Shown here: positions 7,363 through 53,025 of the stretch, in pieces
Layout: each line of letters opens with the position of its first letter
How positions within the stretch are numbered: position 1 is the first letter of the stretch
Source of the DNA: a virus
Virus record (IMG/VR): IMGVR_UViG_3300049811_000819
Span: 1-63,473 of that record
DNA length: 63,473 nucleotides
Direction: 5' to 3' (one strand)
Position numbers and translations under genes: made by a program
Notes under the pieces: generated by a model
What the model saw: only the letters and a program-made list of their open reading frames with translations
Databases searched by the model: none
What the model was told of the DNA's origin: nothing

Positions 7363-7393
7363 GTTTTAAGTAAGAATTCTAAAGTTTCTGTTA

Positions 7394-7804
7394 TTATTCT
7401 ACTCGATAGATAAAAACAAGCGTTCTTATGACCTCGGCAAGGTACGAACAAATTACGCCTTTTTCTGTGTCAGCATGAAGATATACCTCCTCTCCCGCAT
7501 AAATGCCAACGTGGGTTATTACACCCGCCCGTTTGAACACTAGCACATCGCCAATATCAGGTTTTCCGTCAACACGGGTTAGGTAGCGATCGAGAGATTT
7601 TACGAGAAAATCATTTCGGGGAATTCGTTCGTAATTTTCGAGGGCAAAGTCTGACGGGAGAAACCCTACATTCACTCCTACGCCAGCAAGAAATCCGACG
7701 CAATCACAACCGATTCCTTTTTTACTCTGGCCATGATGCCATGGTGTCCCAATCCACTCGATTGCCTCGGCGACGATTTTATCTCCCAACGCATCTACAG
7801 TCAT
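7394..7804 (-). CDS. NlpC/P60 family tail-associated cell wall peptidase
   Basis: 136 residues, single domain. Cys35 in GCDCVGFL, His98 in ITHVGIYAG and His110 in EVYLHAD form the expected Cys-His-His set of NlpC/P60 cysteine peptidases. In long-tailed phages this protein sits at the tail tip and opens peptidoglycan during DNA entry. It lies between the tape measure side and the hub gene, as in lambda (K) and gene transfer agents. Its start overlaps the end of the small upstream gene by 26 bp. Confidence 0.85.
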   Translation of the reverse strand: MTVDALGDKIVAEAIEWIGTPWHHGQSKKGIGCDCVGFLAGVGVNVGFLPSDFALENYERIPRNDFLVKSLDRYLTRVDGKPDIGDVLVFKRAGVITHVGIYAGEEVYLHADTEKGVICSYLAEVIRTLVFIYRVE

Positions 7805-7964
7805 GTTCTCTTTCCTCCGATCTTGGGCGAAATCCCATCTCTACCCCGTTTCGGTAAGTAGTACAAAGCGATTCTTTTAGTTCTCGATCGCCCCGACACG
7901 ATGGGAGAATTTCCCACGCAATCGCCGAAGCAAGTATTGCTCCTAATACTACTATTTTTTTCAC
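7779..7964 (-). CDS. Small protein with N-terminal membrane or lipoprotein-like segment
   Basis: 61 residues starting at GTG, with AAAGGAG about ten bases upstream. The start codon overlaps the stop of the tape measure gene (GTGA), so translation is likely coupled. Residues 1-23 (MKKIVVLGAILASAIAWEIL) form a signal- or membrane-like segment ending PSC, which could be a lipobox-like cysteine, although the context is not canonical. The rest is charged with two further cysteines. An alternative reading frame over the same bases is less likely because it lacks the coupling and ribosome binding site. Confidence 0.55.
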   Translation of the reverse strand: MKKIVVLGAILASAIAWEILPSCRGDRELKESLCTTYRNGVEMGFRPRSEEREHDCRCVGR

Positions 7965-16900: not shown

Positions 16901-19900
16901 TTCTGTTAGCTGTTGACCTACTCCGAACGGTAAGCCACTAAAAGCTTGTGTCATTTGCATTGACACTGCTTGAAGCATTTCCTGTCCACCAGCGCTCATC
17001 GCCCCTGACAGAATAGTTCGCATTTCGTTGATAACTGCGGCATCTAATCCGAGGGGGAGAGCGTGAAGGGCGGCCGCTCCTACTGCGGCAGTTCCCCCTA
17101 GCTGTAATGCTTTTTTACCTAAGCCCATCCCTGGTATAGCCATGACAGGGCGCTCGATCGCTTTCAATACCGTGAAAACAGTTTGACCGAATTTGATAAT
17201 ATCTAGAGAGGTATCCTTGAGAGCGTTTCTAAGTATTCTGCTCGCTTCTTTTACCTCTCTAATCAATACCTGATTTAATAGGTCTGAAATACTCTCATTA
17301 CCCGACAAAAGCTGTATTTCACCGCTACTATCAGGAGTCGATAATCTAGTAGTTAAACTGCTTTTTAAGCCTGCTTGGGTTTTGATAGCTATACTTTCTA
17401 AGACTTTTTCTAGCGGAGTATTTCCTCTGTCTGTTTCGCTAATACCAAAACCTTCAGGAGCGGGCGGCAAGAGCTTTTGTGAGGATGCTTTGTTAACTGC
17501 ATTTACGAAAGACTGCATTAATTCGGCATTAGATTTAGCCCACGGGTCGTTAGGTGTGCTATTTTGCCACGGATCGATTAAACGACTAGCATATTTGGCT
17601 AGAATAGCTTTTTCTATTCGGGATAGACTAGAAACTATTTGTTTTGTGGCACTGTGAATAGTTTTTTCAATTAAGTTTTCTTTTCCTGTTAAATCTTTTT
17701 GTTTGTTAACTACATCTGATACCTCTTGAGGCTTTATTTGTTGATTCTTGTTTAAAAGTGCCGCAAACTCGGAGATCGCTTTTTCGAGCCTATCAATGCT
17801 AATGATAGCGACTTCTCTGTTCTGGGAGTCTTTGCTTAATTGCCCCGATCTGCTACTTTTAGTTGGGGGACTAACAATGTCGCCTCCTACATTAAGGGTA
17901 TTTTGTTGTCTTCTCCGCAAAAAACGCGGATCATTAACCATTAATGAAGTGTCAGCATACCCCTCATCAAAAGCTTTTTGAAATATTTCCGTGGTTTTTT
18001 TATCGTATCCTTGAGTGCTTCGTCCTTTTGCCCCTTGAACATCTCTATTTATCTGTTCTTGGCGAGTTGTCTGATCTTTTGATAGCTTTGTTGCATTAGC
18101 AAAATCAATAGCTTTTAGTTCGTTTTCTGGACTAATTAAAACATTTTCTGTATTTAGATCAAAATGAGCATATCCAGATTCGTGTATATTTTTGAGTAAG
18201 CGTGCATAACGTTTTACATAATTTGTAAAAGCTTTAATATTTTCTTGGGTACTTAAATCGGCTTTTCGTAAAATATCGTTTAAAGAGCCAACTGTTTTAA
18301 TATATTCCTGAATAAAATACTCACCTTTTCTTGCGGTAATCGGGCGTGGTGCAAGTCCTTGTTTTGCCATTGCTAACTGAGCCTGGAACTCTTTTGGGGT
18401 TCCAAGTTTTCCTTGATTTAGTTCCGTGACTGGTGTTTTAATCGCTAAATTTCCAAGTCGATACACGGCTCCCGTAAAACCTTGTCCTACTTTTTCCGCT
18501 TTAAGTACATCAAGGTTTTCAGGGAGTATTTTTTGGGATTTCTGTAATGCTCGATTAACATTAATTAAGTCAAATGGCTGATACTGAATTGACTTGATAT
18601 TCTGTGATTCAGATGTTAGGGATTGCGATACATTTTCTAGCGCACTCTCGATTAATCCTGTATTTGTTCTTAAAGACGCTTCAAATCCAAGAATAGCGTT
18701 TGAGAGGTTAAAGAAAAAGTCGGTAATATTTTCTACGCTTTCGCCCATTGTGGCGATCTCTTTAATTACCTTGTTTTTCCCTATAAAAGTCGGAACTGAT
18801 GCGTTTGTGTCAACGTATTTATTAGCCGCATTTATCATTTCGCCAATACGCGAGAATGGGCTAGTTTTTAAGAGTTGAAGGTATTCTGATTGCGCTCCCT
18901 TGTCTCCCCCTGCGATTCTTTTTTGCAATTCGGAAACACGTCTTAAAAAGCCTTGATAAATCTGTGCTTCTTTCCGACGTATTTCAATCAAAGCCTGAAC
19001 GACTTTTTTGGCCGCCTTGTCTGCTTCCGTGTTCATGGGCATTTTGTCAACCCACTTTAATAAATCGGGCAGGGACTGGTCTTTGACTAGCGGCAATCCT
19101 TTTTGATTAGTTGTTTGCGAGAGTTTGTAGAGAATATCCCCAAATCGAGGATTAATGTTTTTACGAATATTGCTAGGCGCATCTTCTCTACGAGAAAACA
19201 TTTCTCCGTATGTTGCTGAGTCTGGAGCAGCATTGTCTGGCTCTGTAACGTAGTGATAAGGTTTTGCTCCAAACTGTTTTTCGTACCCTGCTTCAGCTAG
19301 GGTATCAATAGCATTGATAAAGTTAGTCCATTCTGTCTCAAATTCTTCTCCCATCGTGCGGAAAATATTTTTCCGTGTCTCCATCCAAAAGCGTAAAAGC
19401 GAGCCGAAGTTGCTTGGCTTAAGATCGATAGTATCGGTTCCTGAATTAACAAGTTTCTCGATTTCTTCTAGGTTCGAGAGAAGCGGGTCAAGGTAAGAAA
19501 AAGGAACACTTGCTCCCGTAAGAATTTCTGCAAGAGTATTCTGGTAGGCGGAAATTGTGCTTTGTAGTTCTTTTTGTTCTCCCCCAGATGTTTTGCTTGG
19601 ATTACCAAGAACTGGGATCGTTTTTAAAAACTCTGTCCGTTCAGCTATTTCTTGATCAACGGACGTAATCAACGCAAGTAATTCATCTAGTTTTTTAGTA
19701 TCGTTGACTGATAACCTTGATCGGTCAACACCTGACACAGATTGATCTAATTTTTCTTTGTATTTTTTTAATTCTGTAATTCGCTTAACAATTGGAGCAT
19801 AAAGATGCTTGAGCGACTCTCTGAGACTTTTATTAAATTGTTTTTGAGATGTAGCAAGATTGCTTACATAAAGTCCAATCTTGTGATCTTCCCCTGTTCT

Positions 19901-21712
19901 GTTAAGAGTTAATTGCTGTTTTGACGGAAAGAAAAGACGAGAAGGTAAAGCAACATCAGCAGTTTTGTAAATATCTTCGGCTGCTTTTTTCTTTTTGGCA
20001 TCTTTGCTGTTTATATCGGGAATAAACGACTTTCCAAACATCGTGATCCCAACCTTATCGTAGTTGCCCATTGCAGCAACATATTTAAGCGGGCTTTTCG
20101 GATCGACTACGGAAGTTAAACCTGCATTTGGTGTGCCTATCCCTAATCCATATTTGACATTTTTTAGCATTTCCCTAAGAGCGGGTGACATCTTCATTAG
20201 TTGCTGTAGGATAGCGACTGCCTCCTCAACAACGTAGCCACCACCAGAACCCCCGACTAACGCAATCTCCTTGTCGGGGTTTCCCATTGCAACATTTAAC
20301 GCTTTTGCTGCTAACGTAATTGCGTCTTTGTCAAATCCCTCAAAATTAGTTTGAGCTACTCGATCAATTGGCTGAACTGTTTTAAAAGCTGTTAAAATTC
20401 CTTGATAATCCGCTTCAGACATGAACTTTTGCAAAAGTTCTTTATTTTTCTCGACAATTGGTAGCAATTGCTCTCGAATAAATTGACTTGGACTATTTTT
20501 TAGTTCTTCTAGGCTATTTGATAGGACGTTCGGAACGGCAAGGACGGCTGTTTCTGGAAAAACCCCTTGTACTTGAGCAGCAAGGTCGTAGGTACTTTTT
20601 ACCTGCGGCTGTCCAGGGCGGGATTCACTTGGTTGAACACCACCGGTTACTAAAGTAATAGATTTTCTAGATTTAATAAAATCCTGCTCTTTTTGCGAGA
20701 GTTGTAAGATTTTCGCTATTTCTTCGGCTGCTCTTGCTGATTCCGAGAGTTGTATTCGTTTGCGAATTCTTAACGGTTGTACTGCAACTCGTGCGGCCGC
20801 TCCCAGTGATCGCACGAGATTTTCCTCGGCCACCATTGCAATTTTCGGAAAAGCCTCTTTTAGTTTTTCCCCAATCGGGTAAGCGGGTTCTGGTTCTGTT
20901 GAATTTTTGGGACGTTTTTTGACGTTTGCACGACTAAACTGTTGCGCCTCAACGTAAAGGTCTTCTAATTTTCGATAAGTCTCTGGGTTAAAAAGTGTAT
21001 CAGTTATTGCTCTGTAATTGATACGAAGCAACTGTTTTGCCCCTTTTAGTCCCCTAGGGAAGCCCAGTAAATCCTTAAAAGCAGCGTCAAGAAGATTGTT
21101 AAACTGCTTAACATTGCGGCGAATAGTTTTACCTACTGCCTCGCCTTGATCCTCGAAGTCAATTCCGACTGTTCTATTAAGTCCTTTGCCCGCTTTTAGC
21201 CCGCTATAAAGCCCTGCCCCCGTAAAGAATCCCTCGACTGCATTGCCCACAGTGAGATTAAATGCCTTTTGAAAAATATTTCCGCGAGGGTTAGAGTTTC
21301 GGACGGTTACAGACAGTCGCTCGATCGCTTTTTCTACTTTGTCCTGATAGCCTGAAAAACGATGCTCGACTACAAGCCGAGACGGAACCTTTATATCGAC
21401 ACTGACGCGCTTTAATTCCCGCAATTCCCGATTAAGCCTAACAAGTTCCCGATCCTCGACATAGACACGAACGGGGTTGCGCCGGTAATGAGCAACGGTT
21501 TTGTCGAGGTCATCTCGTTTGAGCTTCAAGTGATCGTTCAGTTGGTACAACCGGCGATCATCTACTTCTACCCCGATTTTTACCGTCACCCCAGAGCGAG
21601 CGGCCATGCGCTGTAGGGAGACAAGTTGACCTTTTGCCCGTGCGATACCAATATCGTACTGGTTAGTATTTAAGCCCAGTCCAATTTCTAGCGTGCCTAG
21701 CGAAACAGTCAT
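7961..21712 (-). CDS. Giant tape measure protein with embedded enzyme-like modules
   Basis: 4583 residues. Order seen: ~1-340 tape-measure-like helices; ~345-620 alpha/beta-hydrolase-like region with nucleophile elbow GGSGGG (~487); ~1067-1275 protein-kinase-like region (VGQGFTGAVY loop, LAIK lysine, HFDLNTEN catalytic loop, DFA replacing DFG); hydrophobic stretch ~1525-1640; a 65-residue repeat at ~1800 and ~2074 flanking a GNAT-like region (~1955-2055, SKKLWERYGFKAL); NAGPA/phosphodiester-glycosidase-like region ~2200-2420 (GFIGINKQGN, FFGKTKEGNL, MTPQQLEKYA); the conventional tape-measure domain ~2830-3060; then long coiled coil to ~4350 and a glycine-rich end. It starts after GGAGAC, two bases past the chaperone extension. 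Tape measures set tail length and are ejected with DNA, so these modules may enter the host (inference). Confidence 0.85.
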   Translation of the reverse strand: MTVSLGTLEIGLGLNTNQYDIGIARAKGQLVSLQRMAARSGVTVKIGVEVDDRRLYQLNDHLKLKRDDLDKTVAHYRRNPVRVYVEDRELVRLNRELRELKRVSVDIKVPSRLVVEHRFSGYQDKVEKAIERLSVTVRNSNPRGNIFQKAFNLTVGNAVEGFFTGAGLYSGLKAGKGLNRTVGIDFEDQGEAVGKTIRRNVKQFNNLLDAAFKDLLGFPRGLKGAKQLLRINYRAITDTLFNPETYRKLEDLYVEAQQFSRANVKKRPKNSTEPEPAYPIGEKLKEAFPKIAMVAEENLVRSLGAAARVAVQPLRIRKRIQLSESARAAEEIAKILQLSQKEQDFIKSRKSITLVTGGVQPSESRPGQPQVKSTYDLAAQVQGVFPETAVLAVPNVLSNSLEELKNSPSQFIREQLLPIVEKNKELLQKFMSEADYQGILTAFKTVQPIDRVAQTNFEGFDKDAITLAAKALNVAMGNPDKEIALVGGSGGGYVVEEAVAILQQLMKMSPALREMLKNVKYGLGIGTPNAGLTSVVDPKSPLKYVAAMGNYDKVGITMFGKSFIPDINSKDAKKKKAAEDIYKTADVALPSRLFFPSKQQLTLNRTGEDHKIGLYVSNLATSQKQFNKSLRESLKHLYAPIVKRITELKKYKEKLDQSVSGVDRSRLSVNDTKKLDELLALITSVDQEIAERTEFLKTIPVLGNPSKTSGGEQKELQSTISAYQNTLAEILTGASVPFSYLDPLLSNLEEIEKLVNSGTDTIDLKPSNFGSLLRFWMETRKNIFRTMGEEFETEWTNFINAIDTLAEAGYEKQFGAKPYHYVTEPDNAAPDSATYGEMFSRREDAPSNIRKNINPRFGDILYKLSQTTNQKGLPLVKDQSLPDLLKWVDKMPMNTEADKAAKKVVQALIEIRRKEAQIYQGFLRRVSELQKRIAGGDKGAQSEYLQLLKTSPFSRIGEMINAANKYVDTNASVPTFIGKNKVIKEIATMGESVENITDFFFNLSNAILGFEASLRTNTGLIESALENVSQSLTSESQNIKSIQYQPFDLINVNRALQKSQKILPENLDVLKAEKVGQGFTGAVYRLGNLAIKTPVTELNQGKLGTPKEFQAQLAMAKQGLAPRPITARKGEYFIQEYIKTVGSLNDILRKADLSTQENIKAFTNYVKRYARLLKNIHESGYAHFDLNTENVLISPENELKAIDFANATKLSKDQTTRQEQINRDVQGAKGRSTQGYDKKTTEIFQKAFDEGYADTSLMVNDPRFLRRRQQNTLNVGGDIVSPPTKSSRSGQLSKDSQNREVAIISIDRLEKAISEFAALLNKNQQIKPQEVSDVVNKQKDLTGKENLIEKTIHSATKQIVSSLSRIEKAILAKYASRLIDPWQNSTPNDPWAKSNAELMQSFVNAVNKASSQKLLPPAPEGFGISETDRGNTPLEKVLESIAIKTQAGLKSSLTTRLSTPDSSGEIQLLSGNESISDLLNQVLIREVKEASRILRNALKDTSLDIIKFGQTVFTVLKAIERPVMAIPGMGLGKKALQLGGTAAVGAAALHALPLGLDAAVINEMRTILSGAMSAGGQEMLQAVSMQMTQAFSGLPFGVGQQLTEAVMNLVTELTNGTISVLAQGGAVAGSSLMAGEGVKKLLGAATGSIPQRLGANDQKALQGRTDALIKTFKQSYQRLASSKLPNPIELAPFEPVKVPKDYVKTIKSGQYQQAKNLLTEALNMPDDTKSLAKIKEAYKSAVASAAEIKRFIEDPQLKGGKINQSLGGMLGHLIDEVKKLFDKAQIIDVEFTVVDLTDEGIKAAENLNEGLTKGLKDNKAGKIARKNAKNIIDGLNNELGNRSPSWKGEKAGRNLIKGVEIGIEKELASSDFQELAEEIVKAFEVGLFLGDIEKIIQSRFADPISGLKDLATEAKMVKWEGGDVVENTQKLLTKKLSKNPSVSLSEKPLSNKTSDFVREETIDDHKVRLYGHGLKDGRFMLSSLMVNNTFTPPVNPETRAKVREVLNRWMKELFAHVGNTPLVTLPTDARSKKLWERYGFKALPPEMGGLMERTSEAGGLKSTFLPEIGKKGIEAGKNLNEGLAKGLKDNKAEKIAYQNAIDIVNATNKGLGNQSPSRKGEKAGKNLIEGIGIGVERQESRLTTKVKELTTKVIKELQKGLSNPAVKGLMATLAIASSGMPVNAQQFIQTESFKGVTMNPATTGAEVVKQVDVDKKAFRDKQAIAYSSGPMFDRFFLQNKNQKVNMIADVVQRGQVLQLSRNRAAAEERGFIGINKQGNLKFGYGGAKSNRLSDYDTFIGGLHVLYNDEVQRPANYKGGYHSSVKQQLAYQVPRPRVFFGKTKEGNLTAMEGQKDMTPQQLEKYARSMGFTAVMLPDHGNMARLTVPSKSLSRILPQSLGGTGKSTPYQLRFFERPQIENKQAKLSKPPSVTTPTPVKKEKNLLASIVSDSIVDKELSISPQSITSKILPVKNVSKKVESAEKALTTDLLKFIGNYGLTVASLLSLLGITGKVASKLKKANQQQKPLSAIPVVENIPQPRQSKQSNNANPSRIIDAEFSVIEEKIKPKQAVKKQNLDQPEKEAIETEKQAKRISRRIENAINIIETTKSKVAKTLASEIQAMQKAASLVMQQRAEQARLAQQARNATDVMQQRAEQARLASGGGGGNQPPRRPRVASGFPDPNDGERMATNTEMSRGLKDSPQRYLEDLIKARAILQKRESLLNQTIKTSNPQKSTREEILGDWNQKRDNIFKTLDSFEEAGVSSGFTSSFVSGLKAAIAQADGFINFLSVGGKALRTLDKELDAATGGMFNLRKASLAVIGGLALFKTAEFLLQPLFFGIQNLPFQFQQAVSSSLLAFTELEQIKINLNVAGVSDVNASIDGLQDRANELGISFKESAKQYAQFRIVTMNSPLQAQSDNIYQGFQSALAVRQTSPQQQAETFRAINQMASRSVLSVEEFTQQLTESGGLYDALIVAARASGLTTAEFYRQASAGQLLTDDVIPRLSSEYERMSAGGLGAASKTLQAEINRYQNNVEQLSMGAGEKLGVVAYPALQLLNALLKGLSDNLSLVVTVGASAAISAIGLLGKAVLQFSAATRLGAMLVSSYNASLFAMGVTAGQTTTQMQTLTATAKVAGGVIKATLGAMIVPASTIFALTTFYDIFENGNAELKNSLETLKESRKVLEDLGKIKPDKNLWNNLFPDMNLSGTEKVLNVLTVGTVYTFKRNNAVRDRQENLKNIREGAGELETNLKGYQTVLSDTSGIDKFIDSLQGVRNQIALIRAERAVASGKGDSASIVRLNEQEQVLMKTEQEAIDKRFGSVGSRITADLQVAENALAQLDEEYRKSGNTLKNYASESARLKELIAGLKTEQQNYLNVLRDQEKQYKKLQYAFNRSLNAQDNRIFANARASLTRQIGNEKGFASGQLNEYEFNVKVREESLQTAKEKIASLQTTASETGAKLNTRITEAADKTLSTYFGDDLKKLGVGSFSEAIDKNLLSREAIERVMSENSDLESNAALKNILEMAQTYATTRQDILATEKEIQTINREIINERKRRQIAEKQSANEVLVAGQQEKLYNATPTSRLRSFQSAETQISLEELYKQLAVEQERLAANVDDPLPIRSNIARIKANIARTRLTLRDQQNDLAEFYATTAIEIEATNKQIKLTARTVSSQVKTFARDQTLIEISKLYKQLAFEQSKLVGTLKGDPLEIEANIARIQLQIEQAKLSLRSQTIDLEDYYTGLQRQVVDLRVSIEDYQIQSAREIRGFRESYGDMIRGLQRSLIEAENEFRTSQRTLENQRLRVSLISGRTPGMNSLQKQLDDLILQYQDEVASIQGEADSLRTRPLDIRDQSIQFARQLRNIQEQIYDAERNRLKQLRDFWNQQVQIARELSRQQLTFKSLNEVWAGILENSKKLLAKSGEIAGGKVPKIAPAIGEAPNNSESSEHYRQGTPNNPRTLQRGDYIDYGNGQIYKYDPSPSYDPKTMRYRSTVNADDIRHPSVVQQVETSGSEEFDRLLMRSGLYKNWEGFAQEVLNPNLQPLTPVERANYTTGNVERYSGVLTGQPQANIPLAPLPTFDYDRAQELNTQIRITREKALQNQQEENLLKLERARRENLDRIAGLIRQTQESRIQAEIGLRDTGDTSTDLMRSSKGYLTFSEKIEQARRNGSREIEKQRESIQSQIRSLEQLTSDFAKNSEETQARLFQDTGNDDAFKALKTENKRNTAILEGYKALDNQLATYGQIRGEAAAMRMIEDERVAALERYNNLLADGIDAGNRINPLGTLFSTGESQKLRIEADFARRRLELKRQAQEGALSPTQLSEMSDALDKMQQANLASAFIEANPAVGAFGDLLRAAFTGGRDTLQQMLNVLTSFLQKIGEMAANQLLMQIFGGSGGASSPVPFSNGGGGLLGGALSLFTGSLGGLGSSVAFTPFTSASGFSLGTGFSLFSSGGKIGADAPIEKNMISAFRRERSMSGGRNPRLIVANEDEYVLTPNETKAYLEYKNTPIKNYATGGFVGGTGYNITNSNSSSSDRSLAITNVSNITIESRNDMGYSLTQLKERENAQNERTKRRFFG
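13733..13829. repeat. 60-bp-period direct repeat inside the tape measure
   Basis: A 37-bp unit at 13733-13769 is repeated identically at 13793-13829. It encodes a duplicated VMQQRAEQARLA peptide in a helical, glycine-flanked linker just before the conventional tape-measure domain, suggesting recent slippage or duplication. Confidence 0.85.
15306..16316. repeat. Diverged 65-residue duplication flanking the GNAT-like module
   Basis: Coding segments 16120-16316 and 15306-15492 encode related peptides: NLNEGLTKGLKDNKAGKIA / NLNEGLAKGLKDNKAEKIA, followed by RSPSWKGEKAGRNLI / QSPSRKGEKAGKNLI. The SPSxK...G tail is a common tape-measure repeat. The copies bracket the acetyltransferase-like region, as if it was inserted between duplicated tape-measure units. 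Confidence 0.75.
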
Positions 21713-33312: not shown

Positions 33313-34212
33313 TTGACACTCCCGTCGTCTCGAAGGGGTTGCACCAGAGAACAAAAAATCGGCTTGCTAGTTGTAGATTCCCGTTTGATCGCCGGTGAGC
33401 TAGGGATCGAGCATCGTGGATTACGTCAGACAGTCGAGAAGTATTTGAACGAGTTACAAGAGTTCGGGACGATAACATTTCAAATGTCATCGTCACGGAT
33501 GCCGGATGGACGCATTAACCCGAAACCTGAGCGCTATTGTTTCCTCAACGAAGATCAGGCGACCTTCCTGATGACGCTTTCCCGCAACACTCCCCAAGTA
33601 GTCGCTTGTAAGCAAAACCTAGTCAAGGCGTTCTCAAAGGCTAAAGAGTTAATCAAAGAAGTCAACCCTGCAAAAAGCGATCGGGAATTAGAGATCGAAA
33701 AAATCCGGGCGATCACCGAAAACGTCTATGCGATAAGCAAAACCGACGTTGAGAAAATGCGGGAACTCAAAAATTTCTCCCCTCCTACCCAAGTCGAATA
33801 CTATCGCCTAGAACAAGAACGAGTAAAAGAGCAGGCGGAACGTGCCAAGACAGAGGCTGAACAGCTTCGGTTAGAGCGTTCCAAAATAGTCCACTCCCCG
33901 AAAAAAGAAACCCTGTACCCTGTAGGAACTACTCTACTCACCCCGGAACAGCTAAAAGACAAGCTAATTACCGACATGGCCGCCTACATCGACAAAATGG
34001 TCAACGAAAAAGGAATCAAGCCGAAAATACGGGATTTACAGCAGAAATTCCAGTCCCGCAAGGTTCCCGATGATAATGGCAAGCTTGTCAGAATTAATGC
34101 GAATATTTTGCGATCGCTCCTACCGGAAGCTTTAGAGCGATGCGAATGCGATCGAGAAAATGTTCTGTTGGGATTACCCCTAAACCGAGTCAGAGTCTCT
34201 CGAACCCACTAG
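33313..34212 (+). CDS. Rha-like antirepressor, apparently N-terminally shortened
   Basis: From VVDSRLIAGELGIEHRGL to CFLNEDQATFLMTLSRNTPQV and NLVKAFSKAKELIKE the protein matches the Rha domain of its paralogs at 42559 and 52270. Those start MSIQI(L/V)TVNESLVVDSR; here the first strand is missing and only TTG starts exist (33313 or 33364), so the N-terminus looks truncated or altered. The C-terminus (LITDMAAYIDKMVNE...KIRDLQQKFQSR...INANILRSLLPE) is shared with the BRO-type protein at 34289, showing domain exchange. A coiled coil links the two. Role: probable phage regulatory protein. Confidence 0.7.
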   Translation: MTLPSSRRGCTREQKIGLLVVDSRLIAGELGIEHRGLRQTVEKYLNELQEFGTITFQMSSSRMPDGRINPKPERYCFLNEDQATFLMTLSRNTPQVVACKQNLVKAFSKAKELIKEVNPAKSDRELEIEKIRAITENVYAISKTDVEKMRELKNFSPPTQVEYYRLEQERVKEQAERAKTEAEQLRLERSKIVHSPKKETLYPVGTTLLTPEQLKDKLITDMAAYIDKMVNEKGIKPKIRDLQQKFQSRKVPDDNGKLVRINANILRSLLPEALERCECDRENVLLGLPLNRVRVSRTH

Positions 34213-42558: not shown

Positions 42559-43311
42559 TTATTCGCCCAATAACAGTTGTCTTTGCCCTTCCGACAAAAT
42601 CCGAACAGCTTTGTCGATATTTTCTTGGTGTACAAAAGACTGAGTGATCGGGCGCTGGATCAAATCCAATAAATCAGGTGCTATTTTTTGCAATCGACGT
42701 TCTAACTCCGCCCCCGATTTAAATGTAACTCCCGTCATTTTTTTTATATGATCTTTTAATTGTGCAGTAGTCATTCCCTTGCGGCGATCACCACAACGCT
42801 GATCTATTACTTCTAATACGACTTTTTCGGTTTCGACAATTTGATCAGCCATGCCACGCAATGCGAGGACAGTCTCTTTGCCGTGTAAGACTAGCATCGT
42901 ATGGTCTAATTGTCTCAGTTCAAGTTGCTTGGACAATACTTCGTTTTGTAGTTCTAACTCTCGAATGCGATCGCTTTGCTGTGGGATAACTTCTTTGATT
43001 AGTTTTTTGGCTTCTGAAAAAGCTCTAACTAGGTTGCGCTTGCATTGACGCACTTGCTCACTATTCCGAGAAAGTGTCATCGTATAAGTTGCTTGATCTT
43101 CGTTTAAGTAACAATAAATTTCTGTAGAAGTATTACCCTGACTTGTTTTGAACTCTCGCATTTTAAATTCTAGAGTTCCAAATTGTTCAATTTCTGTTAA
43201 ATACTTTTTGATTGTTTGCAAAAAGCCTTTATGGGTAATCCCTAATTCATCAGCGATTAAACGGGAATCAACAACTAAAGACTCGTTAACTGTTAAAATC
43301 TGAATAGACAT
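42559..43311 (-). CDS. Rha-like phage regulatory protein
   Basis: 250 residues. Rha domain: MSIQILTVNESLVVDSRLIA, GITHKGFLQTIKKYL, YCYLNEDQATYTMTLSRNSEQV, CKRNLVRAFSEAKKLI. Coiled coil ~115-145. The C-terminal part (KSGAELERRLQKIAPDLLDL...ENIDKAVRILSEGQRQLLLGE) is related to the end of the paralog at 52270. Rha proteins are antirepressor-like and can block phage or helper growth. Preceded by the conserved leader and AGGAG. Confidence 0.8.
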   Translation of the reverse strand: MSIQILTVNESLVVDSRLIADELGITHKGFLQTIKKYLTEIEQFGTLEFKMREFKTSQGNTSTEIYCYLNEDQATYTMTLSRNSEQVRQCKRNLVRAFSEAKKLIKEVIPQQSDRIRELELQNEVLSKQLELRQLDHTMLVLHGKETVLALRGMADQIVETEKVVLEVIDQRCGDRRKGMTTAQLKDHIKKMTGVTFKSGAELERRLQKIAPDLLDLIQRPITQSFVHQENIDKAVRILSEGQRQLLLGE

Positions 43312-43402: not shown

Positions 43403-44125
43403 CTAAGCGCGCTTAATCGTTAACGTCGTCGTTTCGGGCAATCGATATTCGGGATAAGCTAATCGCCATGCCTGATGATGATAAAGATTTTGGAATTCAA
43501 ATCGGGGAGACGGCACTTTTTTGATCTCTAGCCCTAGTTTATTACTTGCCGCTTTCAGTAGTCGCCAGTTAAACGAGGTTTCCCGTACATCGTTAAACTT
43601 GGCAACACGGATAATCGAACTATACTCAAAAAGCTCATCAACCGCTTCAGAAAGAGCATAATTTTCGGCTTCTAGTAGTTGTTTTTGTTCCTCTAGAAGT
43701 TCCATTTTCTCCAATAAGGCGACCTGCTGTTCTGCTAGTTTTAAGTTTTCACGAGCAAGCTCAATCGCTGTTTTGGGTTTAGCGATCGAGTAGCTTCCCG
43801 TTTGACGAATAGAAGGAAGTATCTCGGAGTGCATCCATCGGTTTAGTTGTTTACCCATCTCAGTTCGCGATCGAGATAACAAGAATGTGATCGCCGCATC
43901 ATTGACGATTAGTACACGCTGAACTCCTCCGTTAGTTTCAAGGGAGTAGTCGGCGACTACATCCTTTCCTAAATCCTCTTGTAGTACCGCTTTTGCGTCA
44001 GCCGGGCGCGTTTTGCTTCCCATAGCTTTAAGGACATCGGCTAGTACAAACCACGGATCACCGTCGATCACTACTACCCGGATCGCGTTTCCACTAAAAT
44101 CGAATGGTACAATATTGTTAGACAT
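43403..44125 (-). CDS. BRO-N family antirepressor-like protein
   Basis: 240 residues. BRO-N domain: IRVVVIDGDPWFVLADVLKAMG, VNDAAITFLLSRSRTEM, LNRWMHSEILPSIRQTGSY. A leucine-rich coiled coil (~130-160, QQVALLEKMELLEEQKQLLE) follows, then a distinct C-terminal domain (VRETSFNWRLLKAASNKLGLEIKK...YHHQAWRLAYPEYRLP) that looks like the KilA-C/ANT-type end of phage antirepressors. Preceded by the shared leader. Confidence 0.8.
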   Translation of the reverse strand: MSNNIVPFDFSGNAIRVVVIDGDPWFVLADVLKAMGSKTRPADAKAVLQEDLGKDVVADYSLETNGGVQRVLIVNDAAITFLLSRSRTEMGKQLNRWMHSEILPSIRQTGSYSIAKPKTAIELARENLKLAEQQVALLEKMELLEEQKQLLEAENYALSEAVDELFEYSSIIRVAKFNDVRETSFNWRLLKAASNKLGLEIKKVPSPRFEFQNLYHHQAWRLAYPEYRLPETTTLTIKRA

Positions 44126-45138: not shown

Positions 45139-47052
45139 TTAGGTTAATCCAGAAAGTGCATTGTCAGTAGTGCGGAACTTGGCTACCCGTAACTGTTGAC
45201 TGGCGTTACTTGAACCAGTGGGGTCAACGTCAAGGGTATCAACTCCTTCCCACGAAAGCCATGTCAAGCGGGACTCGCGGTCAAAGTTGGTTACAGAATC
45301 GGTGCGAACCTCGACAGGCATTGCAATTCCACGTCCTACTGCTCCATGTCCAAAGAAATAGGAGTCCCGGAATAGTGCAGTAGTAGAGGGAGTGCGGACG
45401 GTAACATTGCTTACTCCGTCCGCCCCAGCGTTGCCTACCCCAAAAGCATTCGATTCAAAACAGTGAACGCCCTCGACAACACCCATGTAGCCGTTAACTC
45501 GCGGTTCGGACTCATCAGGAACGTAAGCCGGAAGCATGGCATTGAGGAAATCAAGAAGGTTGGCTGGTGTCGGGGCTTCCCAGTCGTCGTCTAAGTCTTC
45601 TCGCAATTGTTTCCAAGCAGTAGGATTTAGGACTGCCATAAAGTTTCCGTCTGGCAGGGGTTCCCACGGGCTAGTAGATGAGTGAGCGCGGTGACGCATC
45701 TCCCGGAGAAATTGTTGACTCATCCGTCCATCGCCGTTTTGTAGAGCAGTCGGAGTAGTAGTGATTGTGTTGCCCCGGTTATACCAGATTACCGAGGTCA
45801 CATCGTAGCGAGACCGGATTAAACGATCCTCGAATTGAGCGTAGTCATAGCCAAATTTTTGATTGAGTTCTGCCGCTAGTTCGTAAGCAGAAAAATACTC
45901 AACGAAACTCACAATCCGGATTGGATTAATTTGCGTAGAAGCACTTTCTTTACCACGTCCATACTCACGAATTTCCACATCGACTTTAGACGTGGACATG
46001 GAATCGCTACGGGTCGTGATCGAACTGTAGGTACTGCCCGCCGATAATTCGTAGTCAGCAAGAGCAGGAGAAACAGAAAGATAATTGAATCTTCCAATTT
46101 GAATTGTGTTTCCCCGCGATTTTGCAAAATCGTATCGCACTAAGGGCATCATGTGAAATACAAAGCCAGGGCGATGGGTGACACGCATAATCGCCGAGAG
46201 CGTAGGTAAAAAGCCACCGGGAAGATCAGAGATGATCGTGTTAGTCACGCTTTCACCAGGATCGATCATCTGAATATCAGTTCCCCGAAAAAGACCCGCT
46301 TTTTTACCCCACGAATCGAGATCGCTTAAAACGTGCCGATAGTTTGCCTTGACATAGCGATCAAGCTCGGTTTTGTCAAAGTCTAGAACACGCTCTTTAG
46401 CTCCTGTAAATTTTATAGCTTTTGGGAGCGAGTCGATATGATGCTGAATTTCCCGAAAAGTACCGGGTAACTTATCGTTGTACCCGATTGAGATATTCGT
46501 GTTAAAGTTTACTGTTTTGAATTTCGGGGCATTGTTTTGTACTTTCACTTCGTCTGTTTCTGCCTTTTTTGCAGGCTGACTAGAGCCGTGGAGTTTTCCT
46601 AGTTCTTGAAAGTTATTAATGAGTCGTTCCGACTCGGACGTTTTAGCTTCGAGTGCAGCGATTTTTTCGTTTGCTTGCTTGATAGCGACCGATGCGCTAT
46701 CAAGAGAGGATTTAATTTCGTTTTTTTCGGCTTCTGCCTGTTGCTTTTGCGCTTCTAACGCAGATTGTTTCTCGGCTTCAGCCACTACCTTAACTTCTGC
46801 AATTGCAGAAGTTACAGCATTTGTGATCATTAACTCGATTGCTTTTAGATCGACCGCAGGAGCGGTGAGAGCTTCAAGGGTTTCGGCTTCAAAATTTTTG
46901 ATAGGAGTAGCTGGCATAGCGTTTTTAATTACGCCGCGTTCCACAGCCTTAGATTTCATCTCAAATAATTCTTTCTCGTCAACAGGTTCCCCATCGGAAT
47001 CTTTCACGACTACGGGGGTAACTCGTTTGATTTCTTGTAATGTTTTAGGCAT
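45139..47052 (-). CDS. Major capsid protein with N-terminal coiled-coil scaffold-like region
   Basis: 637 residues from the ATG at 47052. Residues ~60-150 form a long alanine/glutamate coiled coil (AEAEKQSALEAQKQQAEAEK), like the delta/scaffold part of capsid precursors that lack a separate scaffold gene. The rest is a capsid body (PGGFLPTLSAIMRVTHRPGF, DVEIREYGRGKESAST, GNFMAVLNPTAWKQLR, RDSYFFGHGAVGRGIAMPVE) resembling N4-gp56-type or HK97-fold proteins. The protease-like gene just upstream could remove the N-terminal region. Confidence 0.8.
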   Translation of the reverse strand: MPKTLQEIKRVTPVVVKDSDGEPVDEKELFEMKSKAVERGVIKNAMPATPIKNFEAETLEALTAPAVDLKAIELMITNAVTSAIAEVKVVAEAEKQSALEAQKQQAEAEKNEIKSSLDSASVAIKQANEKIAALEAKTSESERLINNFQELGKLHGSSQPAKKAETDEVKVQNNAPKFKTVNFNTNISIGYNDKLPGTFREIQHHIDSLPKAIKFTGAKERVLDFDKTELDRYVKANYRHVLSDLDSWGKKAGLFRGTDIQMIDPGESVTNTIISDLPGGFLPTLSAIMRVTHRPGFVFHMMPLVRYDFAKSRGNTIQIGRFNYLSVSPALADYELSAGSTYSSITTRSDSMSTSKVDVEIREYGRGKESASTQINPIRIVSFVEYFSAYELAAELNQKFGYDYAQFEDRLIRSRYDVTSVIWYNRGNTITTTPTALQNGDGRMSQQFLREMRHRAHSSTSPWEPLPDGNFMAVLNPTAWKQLREDLDDDWEAPTPANLLDFLNAMLPAYVPDESEPRVNGYMGVVEGVHCFESNAFGVGNAGADGVSNVTVRTPSTTALFRDSYFFGHGAVGRGIAMPVEVRTDSVTNFDRESRLTWLSWEGVDTLDVDPTGSSNASQQLRVAKFRTTDNALSGLT

Positions 47053-47098
47053 GGTGTTTTTCACGATCGCTAAGAAAATTATACTTGAAGTTTTGCTA

Positions 47099-47812
47099 TC
47101 ACGCCATAACAAAAGCGTTCAGGTTTTTATCAAGAATTCTAGCCTGTCGGCAATTTCCCGCAAATACAAAAGAGCATTCTAGGGAGTCACATATTCCGAC
47201 GCGACGGTAGTAAGGCGTTAACAGTTCTTGCTCTACCCATACTGCCATGAACGGGGGGTAATGCTCACAGTGCTTGTCTTCGTAAGGAGTGTTGCAGATC
47301 GGACAGTAGGATTTTCCGTAAAAGTTTCCGCCAATTGAAACATTCGCCCGCCGACCATAGAGAATATCCGAGGCTCCGGGGTGGGACTGTTCAATAAAAG
47401 CAAATACTAAAACCTGATGATAACCGTCTTGCTCAATAATTGCTCTGTCTTCGCTTGGGTTCGGGGACTTAGAAAGTATCTTTCGCATCCCTTCCTCGCT
47501 TACTCGTGGTAACGAATAAAGCAAAGCATCGTAAATCATCCCGAAAGTTTTTTCTGCCCGTTCCCATTCGTGATCCAACATCAAAGGACAGCCAGGATAG
47601 CTCGCTACCATAGTTGTTAAGGCGCTTTCATCCCACGCCATCAGTGAGCCGTGAATCAGGTTGTTGCTGGCCATCATTGGGAATCGCAAAAGTTCGGACG
47701 CTTCCCACGGGTCAGACCCCATCGGGGAGTAAGCATTAATTGCTAATAGTTCCTCGGCTGTCGGTTCGCGCGTTTCTAGTAATTTTTCAAAATCTGAGCG
47801 AGTTAGTAGCAT
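47099..47812 (-). CDS. Putative prohead protease
   Basis: 237 residues. SLMAWDESALTTMVASYPGCPLMLDHEW contains a conserved His in the position seen in phage capsid-maturation proteases, and VLVFAFIEQSHPGASDILYG and RANVSIGGNFYGKSYCPICN follow a pattern known from phage proteases with a Cys/His cluster (CPICNTPYEDKHCEHYPP). VGICDSLECSFVF fits the usual late 'eCSfV' element. Serine and His for catalysis are plausible, but I cannot fix the triad. It is located right before the capsid gene. Confidence 0.55.
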   Translation of the reverse strand: MLLTRSDFEKLLETREPTAEELLAINAYSPMGSDPWEASELLRFPMMASNNLIHGSLMAWDESALTTMVASYPGCPLMLDHEWERAEKTFGMIYDALLYSLPRVSEEGMRKILSKSPNPSEDRAIIEQDGYHQVLVFAFIEQSHPGASDILYGRRANVSIGGNFYGKSYCPICNTPYEDKHCEHYPPFMAVWVEQELLTPYYRRVGICDSLECSFVFAGNCRQARILDKNLNAFVMA

Positions 47813-47954: not shown

Positions 47955-48593
47955 CTATAGCCAGCCTGAGCCAGCAAGGAGGTTTGTCGTCGGGCGCGTG
48001 CGAGAATTGGAAAAAACAAAATAACATCCGCAATTATCTCGGCAGGAACAGCGATCGGTGGGACGGGGGAGGGTTCCAATTGTCTGCCATCCCGCCGCTT
48101 CGTACACTATGCACTCACGGCAGGATTCGGTTTTTGTCCTGATTCGGCGTTCCCATCGGTTTACTAAAGCGTTTCCCCGGCGATTTCCCTCCTCGAAAGC
48201 TTCACGAGCTTTAGTGATGTAACGTTTTGAGCGGTTTAGAATTTGTTTTTCTGTTTGAGTTCCAAGTATAATGTCCCGGCTAAACTTTCGGAGTCTAGCG
48301 TACTGTGAGCGAAGCATTGCCCCGATCCTTCCGTAGTCGGATTGGGTCATATCTGGCTTCCCGACTCGATACAGTTGGATCGTCAACATCTTAATTTCCT
48401 CGCTCATGCGAGACTCCCATTCTCGAACGGTGATTCGTTCAGAAAGCATATCCCGTGTAAGTCGATCAGTCCGATTAATCCTTTCGTTGATCGCCGTAGC
48501 GACAAGCTCACGAACACGGGCGGCCGAAATAAATTTCTTGGTTCGGTTGTCGTGATAGCGTCGAGTTAGGGGATTAAATGAAAAATCAAACAT
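47955..48593 (-). CDS. MuF-like minor head protein
   Basis: 212 residues from the ATG at 48593. A helical N-terminal two-thirds is followed by the MuF-type ending: WERRIRTKTESCRECIVYE, GTLPRPTDRCSCRDNCGCYFVF, with the C..C ... C.C...C.C cysteines. The protein usually sits inside the head near the portal. It lies between the EAL/small gene and the protease-like gene. Confidence 0.75.
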   Translation of the reverse strand: MFDFSFNPLTRRYHDNRTKKFISAARVRELVATAINERINRTDRLTRDMLSERITVREWESRMSEEIKMLTIQLYRVGKPDMTQSDYGRIGAMLRSQYARLRKFSRDIILGTQTEKQILNRSKRYITKAREAFEEGNRRGNALVNRWERRIRTKTESCRECIVYEAAGWQTIGTLPRPTDRCSCRDNCGCYFVFSNSRTRPTTNLLAGSGWL

Positions 48594-48595
48594 AG

Positions 48596-48769
48596 TCAAA
48601 GCTGTTCATCGATCTCTGGTTCAAGAAAGTTTTCAAAATCAGGATCGGGAGGTTTTTTCTTCCAGTCTGAGATTGCTAAATTTATGTCTTCAGAATTTAC
48701 GTTTGCCTTTGATAATAAGCGTGTTACTGGATCAAGAGTTTTTTCTTTTGGGTTAAATTTGCTTCGCAT
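48596..48769 (-). CDS. Small hypothetical protein upstream of MuF
   Basis: 57 residues (MRSKFNPKEKTLDPVTRLLS ... ending EPEIDEQL). Its stop is 2 bp upstream of the MuF ATG and its start is 3 bp downstream of the EAL gene stop, so it fills the gap exactly and looks like a real cistron. Basic N-terminus, acidic C-terminus; no family recognised. Confidence 0.7.
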   Translation of the reverse strand: MRSKFNPKEKTLDPVTRLLSKANVNSEDINLAISDWKKKPPDPDFENFLEPEIDEQL

Positions 48770-48772
48770 GAT

Positions 48773-49477
48773 TTACTCAATACAAAGGTCTTCGGGATGA
48801 ACAGGACAATGAAAAGCGTAACCTTGAAAATATTCTAACCCTAAACTGCTTAAAAGATTAAATTGCAACAAAGACTCAACTCCTTCAGCAACTAAAACTG
48901 TTCCTTGTTCTTGACAGAATTTTGCAAAATACTTAATAAAACTAGCTTTTTCTGAATTGTCAGCGTCAACCAAAAATAGGCGATCAAGTTTGATGATCGA
49001 GGGAGAAATAGAGAATAGTCTATCAAGCCCTGCGTGATTGCAAGGAAAATCGTCAATAGCAATTCTATAGCCTAAGTCTTTTAAAAAACAAATTTCGTTT
49101 AATCCGTTTGGGGAAATAGGATCGCTTTCTGTTATCTCAATAATTACCTTGTCAGGATTTAAAAAAGTCGTCAACTGCTTTATGTGAGTTTTGTTTGCTA
49201 ATTGAATAGGCGAAACATTTACGCAAACTGACGAGATATTGTACCTATTAATATCCTCACTAACAATTTTTGCGATTAATAAATAAAGAGAGAGAAGCTG
49301 ATTAGCTTCAGCCGCAACCTCAAAAATATGTCCTGCGCCCTCTGTTTCAAAACCTTTCCAGCGAAGTAAAGCCTCGCAAGAAAACGGAATCTTTTCTGAA
49401 TTGACAATTGCCTGATAATACGGGCGAATATCGCCTCTGTCTAATGCTTTAAGCAGGTCTGCTGGATTCTTTCTCAC
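48773..49477 (-). CDS. EAL-domain (c-di-GMP phosphodiesterase-like) protein
   Basis: 234 residues from a GTG at 49477 (29-bp overlap with the portal gene; another GTG at 49492 is possible, and the frame is open to 49618). A whole EAL domain is present: CEALLRW, CVNVSPIQL (Asn), IIEITES (Glu), IAIDDF (two Asp), IIKLDR (Lys), LVAEGVES (Glu) and YFQGYAF (Gln). Loop 6, normally DDFGTGYSSL, is DDFPCNHAGL, so dimerisation or activity may be changed. EAL enzymes cleave cyclic di-GMP to pGpG. No GGDEF, sensor or membrane part. Its place between portal and MuF is unusual. Confidence 0.85.
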   Translation of the reverse strand: MRKNPADLLKALDRGDIRPYYQAIVNSEKIPFSCEALLRWKGFETEGAGHIFEVAAEANQLLSLYLLIAKIVSEDINRYNISSVCVNVSPIQLANKTHIKQLTTFLNPDKVIIEITESDPISPNGLNEICFLKDLGYRIAIDDFPCNHAGLDRLFSISPSIIKLDRLFLVDADNSEKASFIKYFAKFCQEQGTVLVAEGVESLLQFNLLSSLGLEYFQGYAFHCPVHPEDLCIE

Positions 49478-50732
49478 TTTTTTCTTTCTCACTTTTTGGT
49501 GTACTTTCTTCTGTGGCGGTGTCGTCAGTTTCGTCGCTCGACATTCCATCAATTGACTCTGACCATTCTGGCCAAAGTATCCGATACTTATTTTGAGCAT
49601 TCTCGGTGTACCAATCAAAGCCTTTGCGTAATACTATCTCTGTGTCGATTGCTTGTTTAATTGCGCTCGTCAGTAGTTGACACCATCCGTACCTCATCCG
49701 AGAGTAGCGGCGATCAGGCGATCGAGATAGCTCTTTAGTTCCCCCCTTTGATTCGAGTCCGGGAAAAAAGTACGAGGGAAAGCCAGGGATAATTAGCCTA
49801 TATCGGCATTGCAAAAGATGATTAATTAATCCCGATAGTTCAGGATTAAGGTTTGCCATTTTGCGAATATCGTGTTTATCGCTAGTTAGTACAAAATCGG
49901 TGATCGTCCCTGATTGTCGCCGTAGCTGTATTTCTTGTTCAAATTTTCGCTTGTTTTCTTCGCTTATGCCCGGGAAGATGTACAAGGTCGGATCACTCGC
50001 AATGTCATCGGCTTTTCTTTGGAGATTGTCGGCCGCTCGTTTTACGTCTGTCCATGCTTCAAGCGATGGTAGCCAAAGCGAACGCCCATAAAGGAATTCG
50101 GGAGAATGCCGGAGATGGATAAGTTTTTCTGGCTCGAAAAAATAATCGGGATCGGAATCGGATAAATACTTTCTTTGTTCAAATCCGATCAGTTGTCCTT
50201 GGTCTGTTTCTTTTCGGAACATCTCGAATGTAGGCAGATAAAGACTCTTGTTTACTCCAAAATCCTTGCTTTTGTTCGGAGATAATCCTTCACGCTCAAT
50301 CCCTAGTTCGATAAAACAATCGCCTTTTCCTAATGTCCATCGCAAGGCTTTTTTAAGCTTGTCCCCTCCGATCACGTGAGAATCTAAAGATTGCTTTCTT
50401 TGGCGTAATTCTTCAGCAATTGCAAAAACTTCAGCGTTTATGGGTGTTTCTTCGTCATCGAGCGTATCGGCAATCGCCCAACCTTGATCGTCCCCGTCGC
50501 TACTAGCGAAAGTATCATCGGCGGCCATTTCGAGGGAATGGAACACCTCATAGCACCATTGGTTAAGTTCGATTAGCTCACGGGAAATTCGAGGGTTACG
50601 AATCGGATTTTCCTCGATTTCTAGGTCGTATCTCCGCGTCATCGATAGAATTCCCGATGAAGCAAGCGATCGCTGTGAACCTCTTAGCGATCCGTCTTGT
50701 TTTTTGTCTTTTTTCTTTTTTGTTTTGGCCAT
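49449..50732 (-). CDS. Portal protein
   Basis: 427 residues. First gene of the head operon. WALTLGKG-type core: LKKALRWTLGKGDCFIELGIE, PTFEMFRKETDQGQLIGFEQ, EPEKLIHLRHSPEFLYGRSLW, LEAWTDVKRAADNLQRKADD, ISEENKRKFEQEI and FFPGLESKGGTKE form the usual portal order (wing, 'hlr....yG.S....', stem helix, crown). The C-terminus is Ser/Glu-rich and overlaps the EAL gene. The N-terminus is extremely lysine-rich (MAKTKKKKDKK). Confidence 0.8.
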   Translation of the reverse strand: MAKTKKKKDKKQDGSLRGSQRSLASSGILSMTRRYDLEIEENPIRNPRISRELIELNQWCYEVFHSLEMAADDTFASSDGDDQGWAIADTLDDEETPINAEVFAIAEELRQRKQSLDSHVIGGDKLKKALRWTLGKGDCFIELGIEREGLSPNKSKDFGVNKSLYLPTFEMFRKETDQGQLIGFEQRKYLSDSDPDYFFEPEKLIHLRHSPEFLYGRSLWLPSLEAWTDVKRAADNLQRKADDIASDPTLYIFPGISEENKRKFEQEIQLRRQSGTITDFVLTSDKHDIRKMANLNPELSGLINHLLQCRYRLIIPGFPSYFFPGLESKGGTKELSRSPDRRYSRMRYGWCQLLTSAIKQAIDTEIVLRKGFDWYTENAQNKYRILWPEWSESIDGMSSDETDDTATEESTPKSEKEKSEKESSRPA

Positions 50733-52269: not shown

Positions 52270-53025
52270 TTATTCGCCAATTAACATCTGTCGGCTTACA
52301 CTTTTTCGTTTTTGAGCAAACAAATCTTTAACTGTTTTAATATTTTCTTCTGGAATATAGGGAGCCTGTACTGCTCGCATTCCTTGACAAATTAGGTGAT
52401 CCTGTTTTTGTCGTTTTAGCCAAATTTCTAATTCCCGCCCTGTTTTGAATCCTAATTGTTTGGCCATATCAGCTAGACTTCGCCCAACAAAAGATACGTT
52501 ACGCCCATCTTTGCAAACTACTGTCTCGGTGATAACTTCTTTGACCGGAACGATGGCATTGGGTACACCTTTAATTAAAGCCAGTATCTCAACTCCGTGG
52601 AGCGACGCAATTGCTTCTGATTTGTCTAAGATGTATCGATTATTTTGAGAGATTTCTAACTGCATCTCCAATTCTCGAATGCGATCATTCTGTGCTGGAA
52701 TTACTTCTTTGATTAGTTGTTTCGCTTTCTCAAATCCTTCAACTAATTTTTCTTTGCAGTCTAGAACCTGTTCGGTATTGCGAGAAAACGTCATCAACAA
52801 AGTAGCTTGGTACTCATTTAAGTAACAGTAAGAAATTTCGTAAGTCCCTCCCTGTGGTCGTTTCACCACGTCGATTTCAAATTTTACTGGTTCTTTTCGC
52901 CCCAAACGGTCAAGATATTTCTTAATTGTTTTAAGTAAACTTGCGTGTTCAATCCCTAATTCTTGTGCAATTAAACGGGAATCAACAACTAAAGACTCGT
53001 TAACTGTTACAATCTGAATAGACAT
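52270..53025 (-). CDS. Rha-like phage regulatory protein
   Basis: 251 residues. Same N-terminus as the paralog at 42559 (MSIQIVTVNESLVVDSRLIA), then EHASLLKTIKKYL, YCYLNEYQATLLMTFSRNTEQV and KLVEGFEKAKQLIKEV. The middle differs; the end (KTGRELEIWLKRQKQDHLI...EENIKTVKDLFAQKRKSVSRQMLIGE) is a diverged copy of the paralog's C-terminal domain. Same leader and AGGAG. Probable antirepressor or host-interaction regulator. Confidence 0.8.
   Translation of the reverse strand: MSIQIVTVNESLVVDSRLIAQELGIEHASLLKTIKKYLDRLGRKEPVKFEIDVVKRPQGGTYEISYCYLNEYQATLLMTFSRNTEQVLDCKEKLVEGFEKAKQLIKEVIPAQNDRIRELEMQLEISQNNRYILDKSEAIASLHGVEILALIKGVPNAIVPVKEVITETVVCKDGRNVSFVGRSLADMAKQLGFKTGRELEIWLKRQKQDHLICQGMRAVQAPYIPEENIKTVKDLFAQKRKSVSRQMLIGE

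Follow-up and report, generated by a model that had tools for sequence, protein, structure and literature searches.

A stand-alone EAL-domain gene with a conserved loop 6 variant in an exchangeable slot between the portal and MuF-like genes of a putative Microcystis phage

The stretch of viral DNA analyzed in the present study (IMG/VR record IMGVR_UViG_3300049811_000819; 63,473 nucleotides, hereafter called the window) carries a gene for a bare EAL domain, with neither a sensor nor a GGDEF domain, among its head genes (Table 1). An initial annotation, which was made from the DNA letters alone, had placed an EAL-domain phosphodiesterase-like gene between those for the portal and a MuF protein, and the matches obtained for the neighboring genes agreed with this position, although no Pfam match was found for the MuF-like gene product.

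Table 1. Features of the window considered in the present study; positions are those of the window.
Feature	Position	Strand	Evidence
Tyrosine integrase	1-1107	+	phrog_1 E=4e-11, PF00589 E=4.5e-4
Major capsid protein	45139-47112	-	34% to annotated MCP of Cylindrospermopsis phage Cr-LKS4, E=8e-68
Probable head maturation protease	47099-47812	-	phrog_18299, E=3.3e-5 (weak match)
MuF-like minor head protein	47955-48599	-	PHROG 24776 (unannotated); position and C-terminal Cys motif
Conserved 57-aa gene (KFNPKEKxLDPVTRLL...DWKKKPPDPDF), MuF-side border of cargo slot	48596-48769	-	Homologous reading in L002, L016, L033, L064
Gene for a stand-alone EAL domain (234 aa; start codon GTG, 49477)	48773-49477	-	PF00563 E=6.8e-38; homology start; SD-like sequence; overlap with portal; model pLDDT 93.8
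Part of the EAL gene (559 nt) whose absence from L004-L011 breaks the frame and removes nearly all catalytic motifs	48850-49408	-	Comparison with L004-L011
Altered loop 6, DDFPCNHAGL	49025-49054	-	Unchanged in L002/L003, where the overall identity is 55%
29-nt overlap, portal 3' end / EAL 5' end	49449-49477	-	L002 overlap equally long, at 8001-8029
Portal protein	49449-50732	-	34% to annotated portal of Cr-LKS4, E=3e-55

The minus-strand open reading frame reported at 48773-49618 was confirmed, but its start had to be moved. The first 141 nt of this frame are portal sequence, the open frame extending back into the portal gene, and homology to the relatives L002 and L003 begins only at GTG 49477, which ruled out the TTG at 49618 as a start codon. 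L002 has an ATG at the equivalent site, SD-like sequences precede the start in relatives (AAGGA before the ATG of L002 and AGAGGA before the GTG of L004), and the overlap between the portal stop and the EAL gene has exactly the same length in L002 as in the window. Taking the start of homology, these SD-like sequences, and the conserved overlap together, GTG 49477 is almost certainly the true start, as far as may be judged from these comparisons. The overlap had also raised the possibility of a portal-EAL frameshift fusion, which was ruled out by the plain 29-nt gene overlap, the SD-like sequences in the relatives, and the separate ATG in L002. Translational coupling of the two genes is likely.

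The Pfam EAL profile matched residues 54-269 of the ORF over profile positions 3-233 of 236, and the score of 130.8 bits against a curated cut-off of 31.3 bits, together with the E value of 6.8e-38, indicates that this match was not due to chance. All eight catalytic and metal residues expected of a catalytic EAL (E33, N85, E112, D140, D141, K161, E196, and Q216, numbered according to window:48773-49471) are present in the window protein and in L002, and the loop 6 anchor Glu (E115) is present in both intact lineages; the reading of a complete EAL domain in the initial annotation is therefore correct. These residues fall in invariant or nearly invariant columns when cyanobacterial and viral EALs are aligned with the phage protein, with the exception of E196, at which Microcystis itself deviates. 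The structural prediction that had been proposed for this protein yielded an AlphaFold2 model with the EAL barrel fold (pLDDT 93.8, pTM 0.90), the top match of which among solved structures was RocR, an active phosphodiesterase (Z 27.1, rmsd 2.1 over 233 residues), followed by YahA, MorA, BifA, PdeA, and others; the stand-alone "versatile" EAL of Vibrio cholerae (6ifq) was also among the matches.

Regarding loop 6, the initial annotation had noted DDFPCNHAGL in place of DDFGTGYSSL, and this reading proved to be accurate to the letter. The usual loop 6 of EAL domains is DFG(T/A)GYSS, whereas the phage copy reads DFPCNHAG, and the two glycines of this loop, which are 88% and 79% conserved in Pfam, are both absent from the phage protein (PMC2994820). 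Loop 6 has been regarded as required for EAL activity (PMC5845226). Without the intact loop 6 of class 1, the phage EAL falls into class 2, "potentially active", of a three-class scheme (PMC7005169), and a 2026 study listed class II EALs that are functional although their signature residues deviate (PMC12900916). The DDFP loop was not seen in 20 cyanobacterial EALs obtained in a class search or in about 80 other viral EALs, and the conservation of this variant offers a natural experiment on the role of loop 6 in EAL enzymes.

Searches of IMG/VR revealed one other intact EAL lineage, consisting of L002 and L003, which are identical over 14.2 kb and were counted as one virus. The EAL of this lineage occupies the same genomic position as that of the window and shares 55% identity with it. 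Between the window and L002, a 16-residue block including loop 6 (AIDDFPCNHAGLDRLF) is unchanged despite eight synonymous codon changes, and a run of identical residues of this length was reached 90 times in 20000 column shuffles. The comparison of the two genes gave a pN of 0.27 and a pS of 0.73, with silent sites near saturation, which, at the codon level, is the pattern of a gene under purifying selection. Since loop 6 has been kept identical despite silent changes, it is maintained by selection, and has not decayed, wherever the gene is intact.

A conserved but altered loop 6 may also be read in another manner, namely, that the alteration abolishes hydrolysis and leaves a c-di-GMP receptor comparable to LapD or FimX, and that this receptor, by binding c-di-GMP, controls a partner such as a phage decision protein or the motor of type IV pili. 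The loss of both glycines, the strict conservation of the variant loop, and the good fit of the FimX and LapD EAL structures to the model (Z 23.5-25) are consistent with this, as is the common use of inactive EALs as receptors (PMC7063779). Nevertheless, we consider a receptor to be rather unlikely because neither lineage has lost any of the eight catalytic residues, among which are the metal ligands and the general base, and the protein has no extra domain for signal output. Several catalytic residues are missing from receptors of the LapD and FimX type, but the set of the phage protein is intact, and since it includes those lost in known receptor-type EALs, catalysis appears to be somewhat more likely than binding only.

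Eight further contigs (L004-L011), which represent two close subtypes of one lineage with 87% identical portals, carry an out-of-frame EAL remnant, in which the first approximately 23 and the last 25 codons are left. The frame is, thus, broken in this lineage, a possibility that the initial annotation had considered damaging to its claim, while it is intact, under purifying selection, and at the same position in L002/L003. The deletion may be taken to indicate a non-functional passenger that was recently captured from a bacterium and is decaying; however, with purifying selection, no close cellular donor, and all 16 residues of the loop 6 block shared by two lineages whose silent sites are near saturation, we find this hardly credible. 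Moreover, as the best cellular identity is about 30-32%, the capture is not recent. Recent acquisition from the Microcystis chromosome in particular was ruled out, with identities of 23-25% to Microcystis EALs and about 32% to the best cyanobacterial one; the nearest relatives of the phage EAL are about equally distant, and the cyanobacterial EALs compared all have a canonical or near-canonical loop 6. Host contamination and misassembly were also ruled out by the occurrence of the gene at the same site in an independent lineage and of remnants in eight more contigs. The EAL-deleted subtypes L004 and L008 show 9 differences per 1400 bp, most of which lie within the EAL remnant, around 7980-8075, and are mostly synonymous, and this suggests recombination with intact EAL copies that may still be circulating.

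The neighborhood in related phages, the survey of which had been proposed, was examined in 80 loci gathered with the portal profile, and showed that the EAL gene is kept at this position in L002/L003, with a remnant, other cargo, or none elsewhere. In a group with about 73% portal identity, the portal-MuF gap measures 1-2.3 kb and usually holds an N6/N4 DNA methyltransferase (PF01555), of which many recombined forms exist, together with a 74-aa gene and, in some cases, a gene with a WDGH domain. In L064 (contig IMGVR_UViG_3300042311_001128), the place of the methyltransferase is taken at 7235-8944 by a 569-aa protein that cuts into the 74-aa gene and matches CARDB, VCPO_N (vanadium-chloroperoxidase N-terminal), and PAP2, an unusual phage cargo. 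In Cylindrospermopsis phages and their 32-35% relatives, the gap is 160-420 bp long and without cargo. Since a gene of the 57-aa type adjoins MuF in each of the window, L002, L016, L033, and L064, the order of the slot is portal, cargo, 57-aa gene, and MuF. The slot methyltransferases of L023-L077 range between 238 and 477 aa, with conserved ends and swapped middles (e.g., L047:7235-8605 and L054:7235-8149), and this pattern looks like modular recognition-domain exchange.

An EAL gene, its remnant, a methyltransferase, a haloperoxidase-like gene, or nothing may, therefore, be found between the portal and 57-aa genes, and because this gap is an exchangeable cargo slot, the EAL gene is, on the basis of gene content, a dispensable accessory (moron-type) gene and not part of head assembly. 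The presence of a signaling gene in a head operon, which had appeared puzzling, is mostly explained by the variable, accessory nature of the locus; the idea that the head operon itself had gained a signaling function was not upheld, given the exchangeable slot and the out-of-frame deletion in eight sister contigs. The portal-MuF position and apparent translational coupling to the portal would also suit an EAL protein that is made beside these head proteins, carried in the head, and ejected with the DNA, such that it acts as infection begins. This appears to be very improbable because the other occupants of the slot are ordinary methyltransferases and a haloperoxidase-like protein, and a sister lineage exists without the EAL. 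The slot is, in any case, a place in which further accessory genes may be sought in related phages.

The window encodes an integrase and a Gp3-like excision factor (RDF), and the phage, which would be siphovirus-like, may be temperate. A 4583-aa ORF (7961-21712, minus strand) shows tape-measure similarity at residues 2563-3545 and also has a serine/threonine-kinase-like match around residues 1129-1219. Several genes of the Rha/anti-repressor or BRO-N families are present in the window (33313-34212, 42559-43311, 43403-44125, and 52270-53025), one of which lies inside the late gene cluster and adjoins the endolysin gene.

No integrated copy of the portal of the window was found in GTDB genomes, the sole match to the portal profile being a CRISPR array of Microcystis aeruginosa LEGE 91341, the spacers of which match the methyltransferase clade, several over their full length. 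Another Microcystis genome, G299, has a 50-spacer array with several spacers that are 100% identical over the full spacer to the EAL-deleted L004/L008, and eight of its spacers have matches in the window, with 90-100% identity over 18-40 nt, at sites distributed between 8 and 54 kb; no such match was obtained with five shuffled versions of the window. On spacer evidence, Microcystis is well supported as the host genus of the L004/L008 sister lineage, and there are strong indications that it is also that of the window phage, which need not be the exact phage sampled by the G299 spacers. The assignment to a phage of cyanobacteria in the initial annotation was, thus, sound. A class-wide DNA search for the host had given only a weak result, consisting of similarity in the endolysin gene and one spacer, and it was the genus-level search with spacer extraction that led to Microcystis. 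The HIP1 palindrome GCGATCGC is 26-fold enriched in the window (13 versus 0.5 expected), and Microcystis and other cyanobacteria are likewise rich in HIP1; this fits a cyanobacterial host, but does not discriminate among hosts. The methyltransferase clade, without HIP1, also has Microcystis spacers. Phages of that clade are almost devoid of CGATCG/HIP1 sites, unlike the EAL clade. In the LEGE 91341 genome (L270), a further CRISPR array is built from another repeat (CTCTACTAGCTAGAG...), and one of its repeats is split by a short insertion with inverted-repeat-like ends.

The c-di-GMP gene set of this host genus is small, as previously described for 24 strains (PMC7063779). The Microcystis genomes that we searched encode at most one REC-GGDEF cyclase (315 aa), with an FHA-GGDEF-EAL hybrid in 9 of 12 and an HD-GYP-like protein in 11 of 12, and the effector ComFB was found in none of the 12. 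All nine hybrids read (L117-L122 and L226-L228) have Lys in the EAL signature (IAKGVE) at the site of the catalytic Glu, unlike in a published survey, in which the catalytic residues of the hybrid EAL were called conserved (PMC7063779). The HD-GYP proteins read LLYRIG where HD is expected, and this same variant (YR-GVP) was noted in the survey as possibly degenerate (PMC7063779). Based on these substitutions, both chromosomal proteins look inactive, and Microcystis appears to possess at most one stand-alone diguanylate cyclase and to be without an intact phosphodiesterase; judging by residues, the catalytic set of the phage EAL would be more complete than that of any Microcystis EAL or HD-GYP read here. 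Remnants of a second EAL gene were observed near the hybrid in several Microcystis genomes.

Taken together, we give about an even chance to the phage EAL being a phosphodiesterase that is expressed late, as its operon position suggests, is co-translated with the portal, and lowers host c-di-GMP. The gene would probably be co-translated through the 29-nt overlap, and the small soluble enzyme would most likely hydrolyze host c-di-GMP to pGpG once the late genes are expressed. Since Microcystis appears to have few cyclases and no intact phosphodiesterase, even modest activity would clear this messenger. PilZ/CelA is a known candidate c-di-GMP target in Microcystis (PMC7063779), and lower c-di-GMP would likely lead to less extracellular polysaccharide of the PilZ/CelA type and to altered type IV pilus behavior, which would aid the spread of the phage out of a mucilaginous colony or block adsorption by rivals. 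Against a phosphodiesterase, both conserved loop 6 glycines are lost, a sister lineage has dropped the gene, such that any benefit would be dispensable or conditional, and the known intact copies come from two lineages only.

Phages encode counter-defenses that degrade cyclic nucleotides, and the loop 6 variant, lying beside the metal and substrate site, may shift the specificity of the EAL to another cyclic (di)nucleotide of CBASS-type immunity, or to pGpG. The "versatile" Vibrio cholerae EAL among the structural matches and the very small c-di-GMP network of Microcystis (PMC7063779) are compatible with such a function; however, the late operon position is late for a counter-defense and the signature residues that contact the substrate are canonical, and we regard this as distinctly improbable. 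A broader speculation, in which a late-made or head-packaged EAL with shifted cyclic-(di)nucleotide specificity disarms a nucleotide-signaled defense of Microcystis, or else supplies the only working c-di-GMP phosphodiesterase of the host and takes control of colony behavior, is also unlikely.

The initial annotation had considered a phage protein acting on a host second messenger to be new, which is only partly the case. Diguanylate cyclases have been reported in Cariaco viral elements (PMC7785012) and a yhjH-like phosphodiesterase in sargassum viruses (PMC11295528), and the literature on EAL domains in phages consists of few, indirect reports. A scan of IMG/VR gave 159 EAL stretches on viral contigs, most of which belong to long multidomain proteins, many being GGDEF-EAL hybrids, and there are three PHROG families of EAL (PHROGs 11823, 22021, and 32988). 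Other stand-alone viral EALs were found in L160 (a 344-kb contig), L204 (beside a phage DNA polymerase), and L215 (about 4 kb from a portal gene). No EAL-like fold was among the listed matches to BFVD viral structures (best E 4e-4, GDPD family), which does not prove its absence in viruses because IMG/VR has these EAL stretches. A 1.67-kb record labeled cyanophage AS-1 contig_14 (DQ115821.1, 381-1064; L127) has an EAL domain that is 28% identical to that of the window, and could be phage or host DNA.

What appears to be new is the combination of a conserved loop 6 variant, a defined cargo slot between portal and MuF, the contents of which turn over, and a host, Microcystis, with inactive-looking phosphodiesterases. 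If the enzyme is active, the virus would directly alter the second-messenger state of a cyanobacterium that forms blooms and has seemingly inactive c-di-GMP-degrading enzymes of its own, phage infection would be linked to colony mucilage and pilus behavior in Microcystis blooms, and the manipulation of c-di-GMP in cyanobacteria by phages would become testable.

In comparison with known systems, the window shares c-di-GMP turnover on a viral contig with the virus-borne genes described above (PMC7785012, PMC11295528, and the PHROGs), whereas the DDFPCNHAGL loop 6 occurs in none of the other viral EALs read and the portal-MuF cargo slot in none of the few contexts examined. The Cylindrospermopsis phages Cr-LKS4 and RM-2018a have a related portal, MuF-like gene, and major capsid protein, with portal and MuF-like genes in the same order as in the window; however, identities are 33-34%, and a single 70-aa gene comes after their portal, with no cargo. 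The degenerate receptor-type EALs of LapD and FimX have the fold and an altered signature region in common with the phage EAL, but have lost catalytic residues that the phage EAL keeps. The phosphodiesterases RocR, YahA, and PdeA (PF00563) share its fold over the whole length and all of its catalytic residues, and the phage EAL differs from them in being without a sensor or GGDEF domain, in reading DDFPCNHAGL and not DDFG(T/A)GYSSL at loop 6, and in being encoded by a phage.
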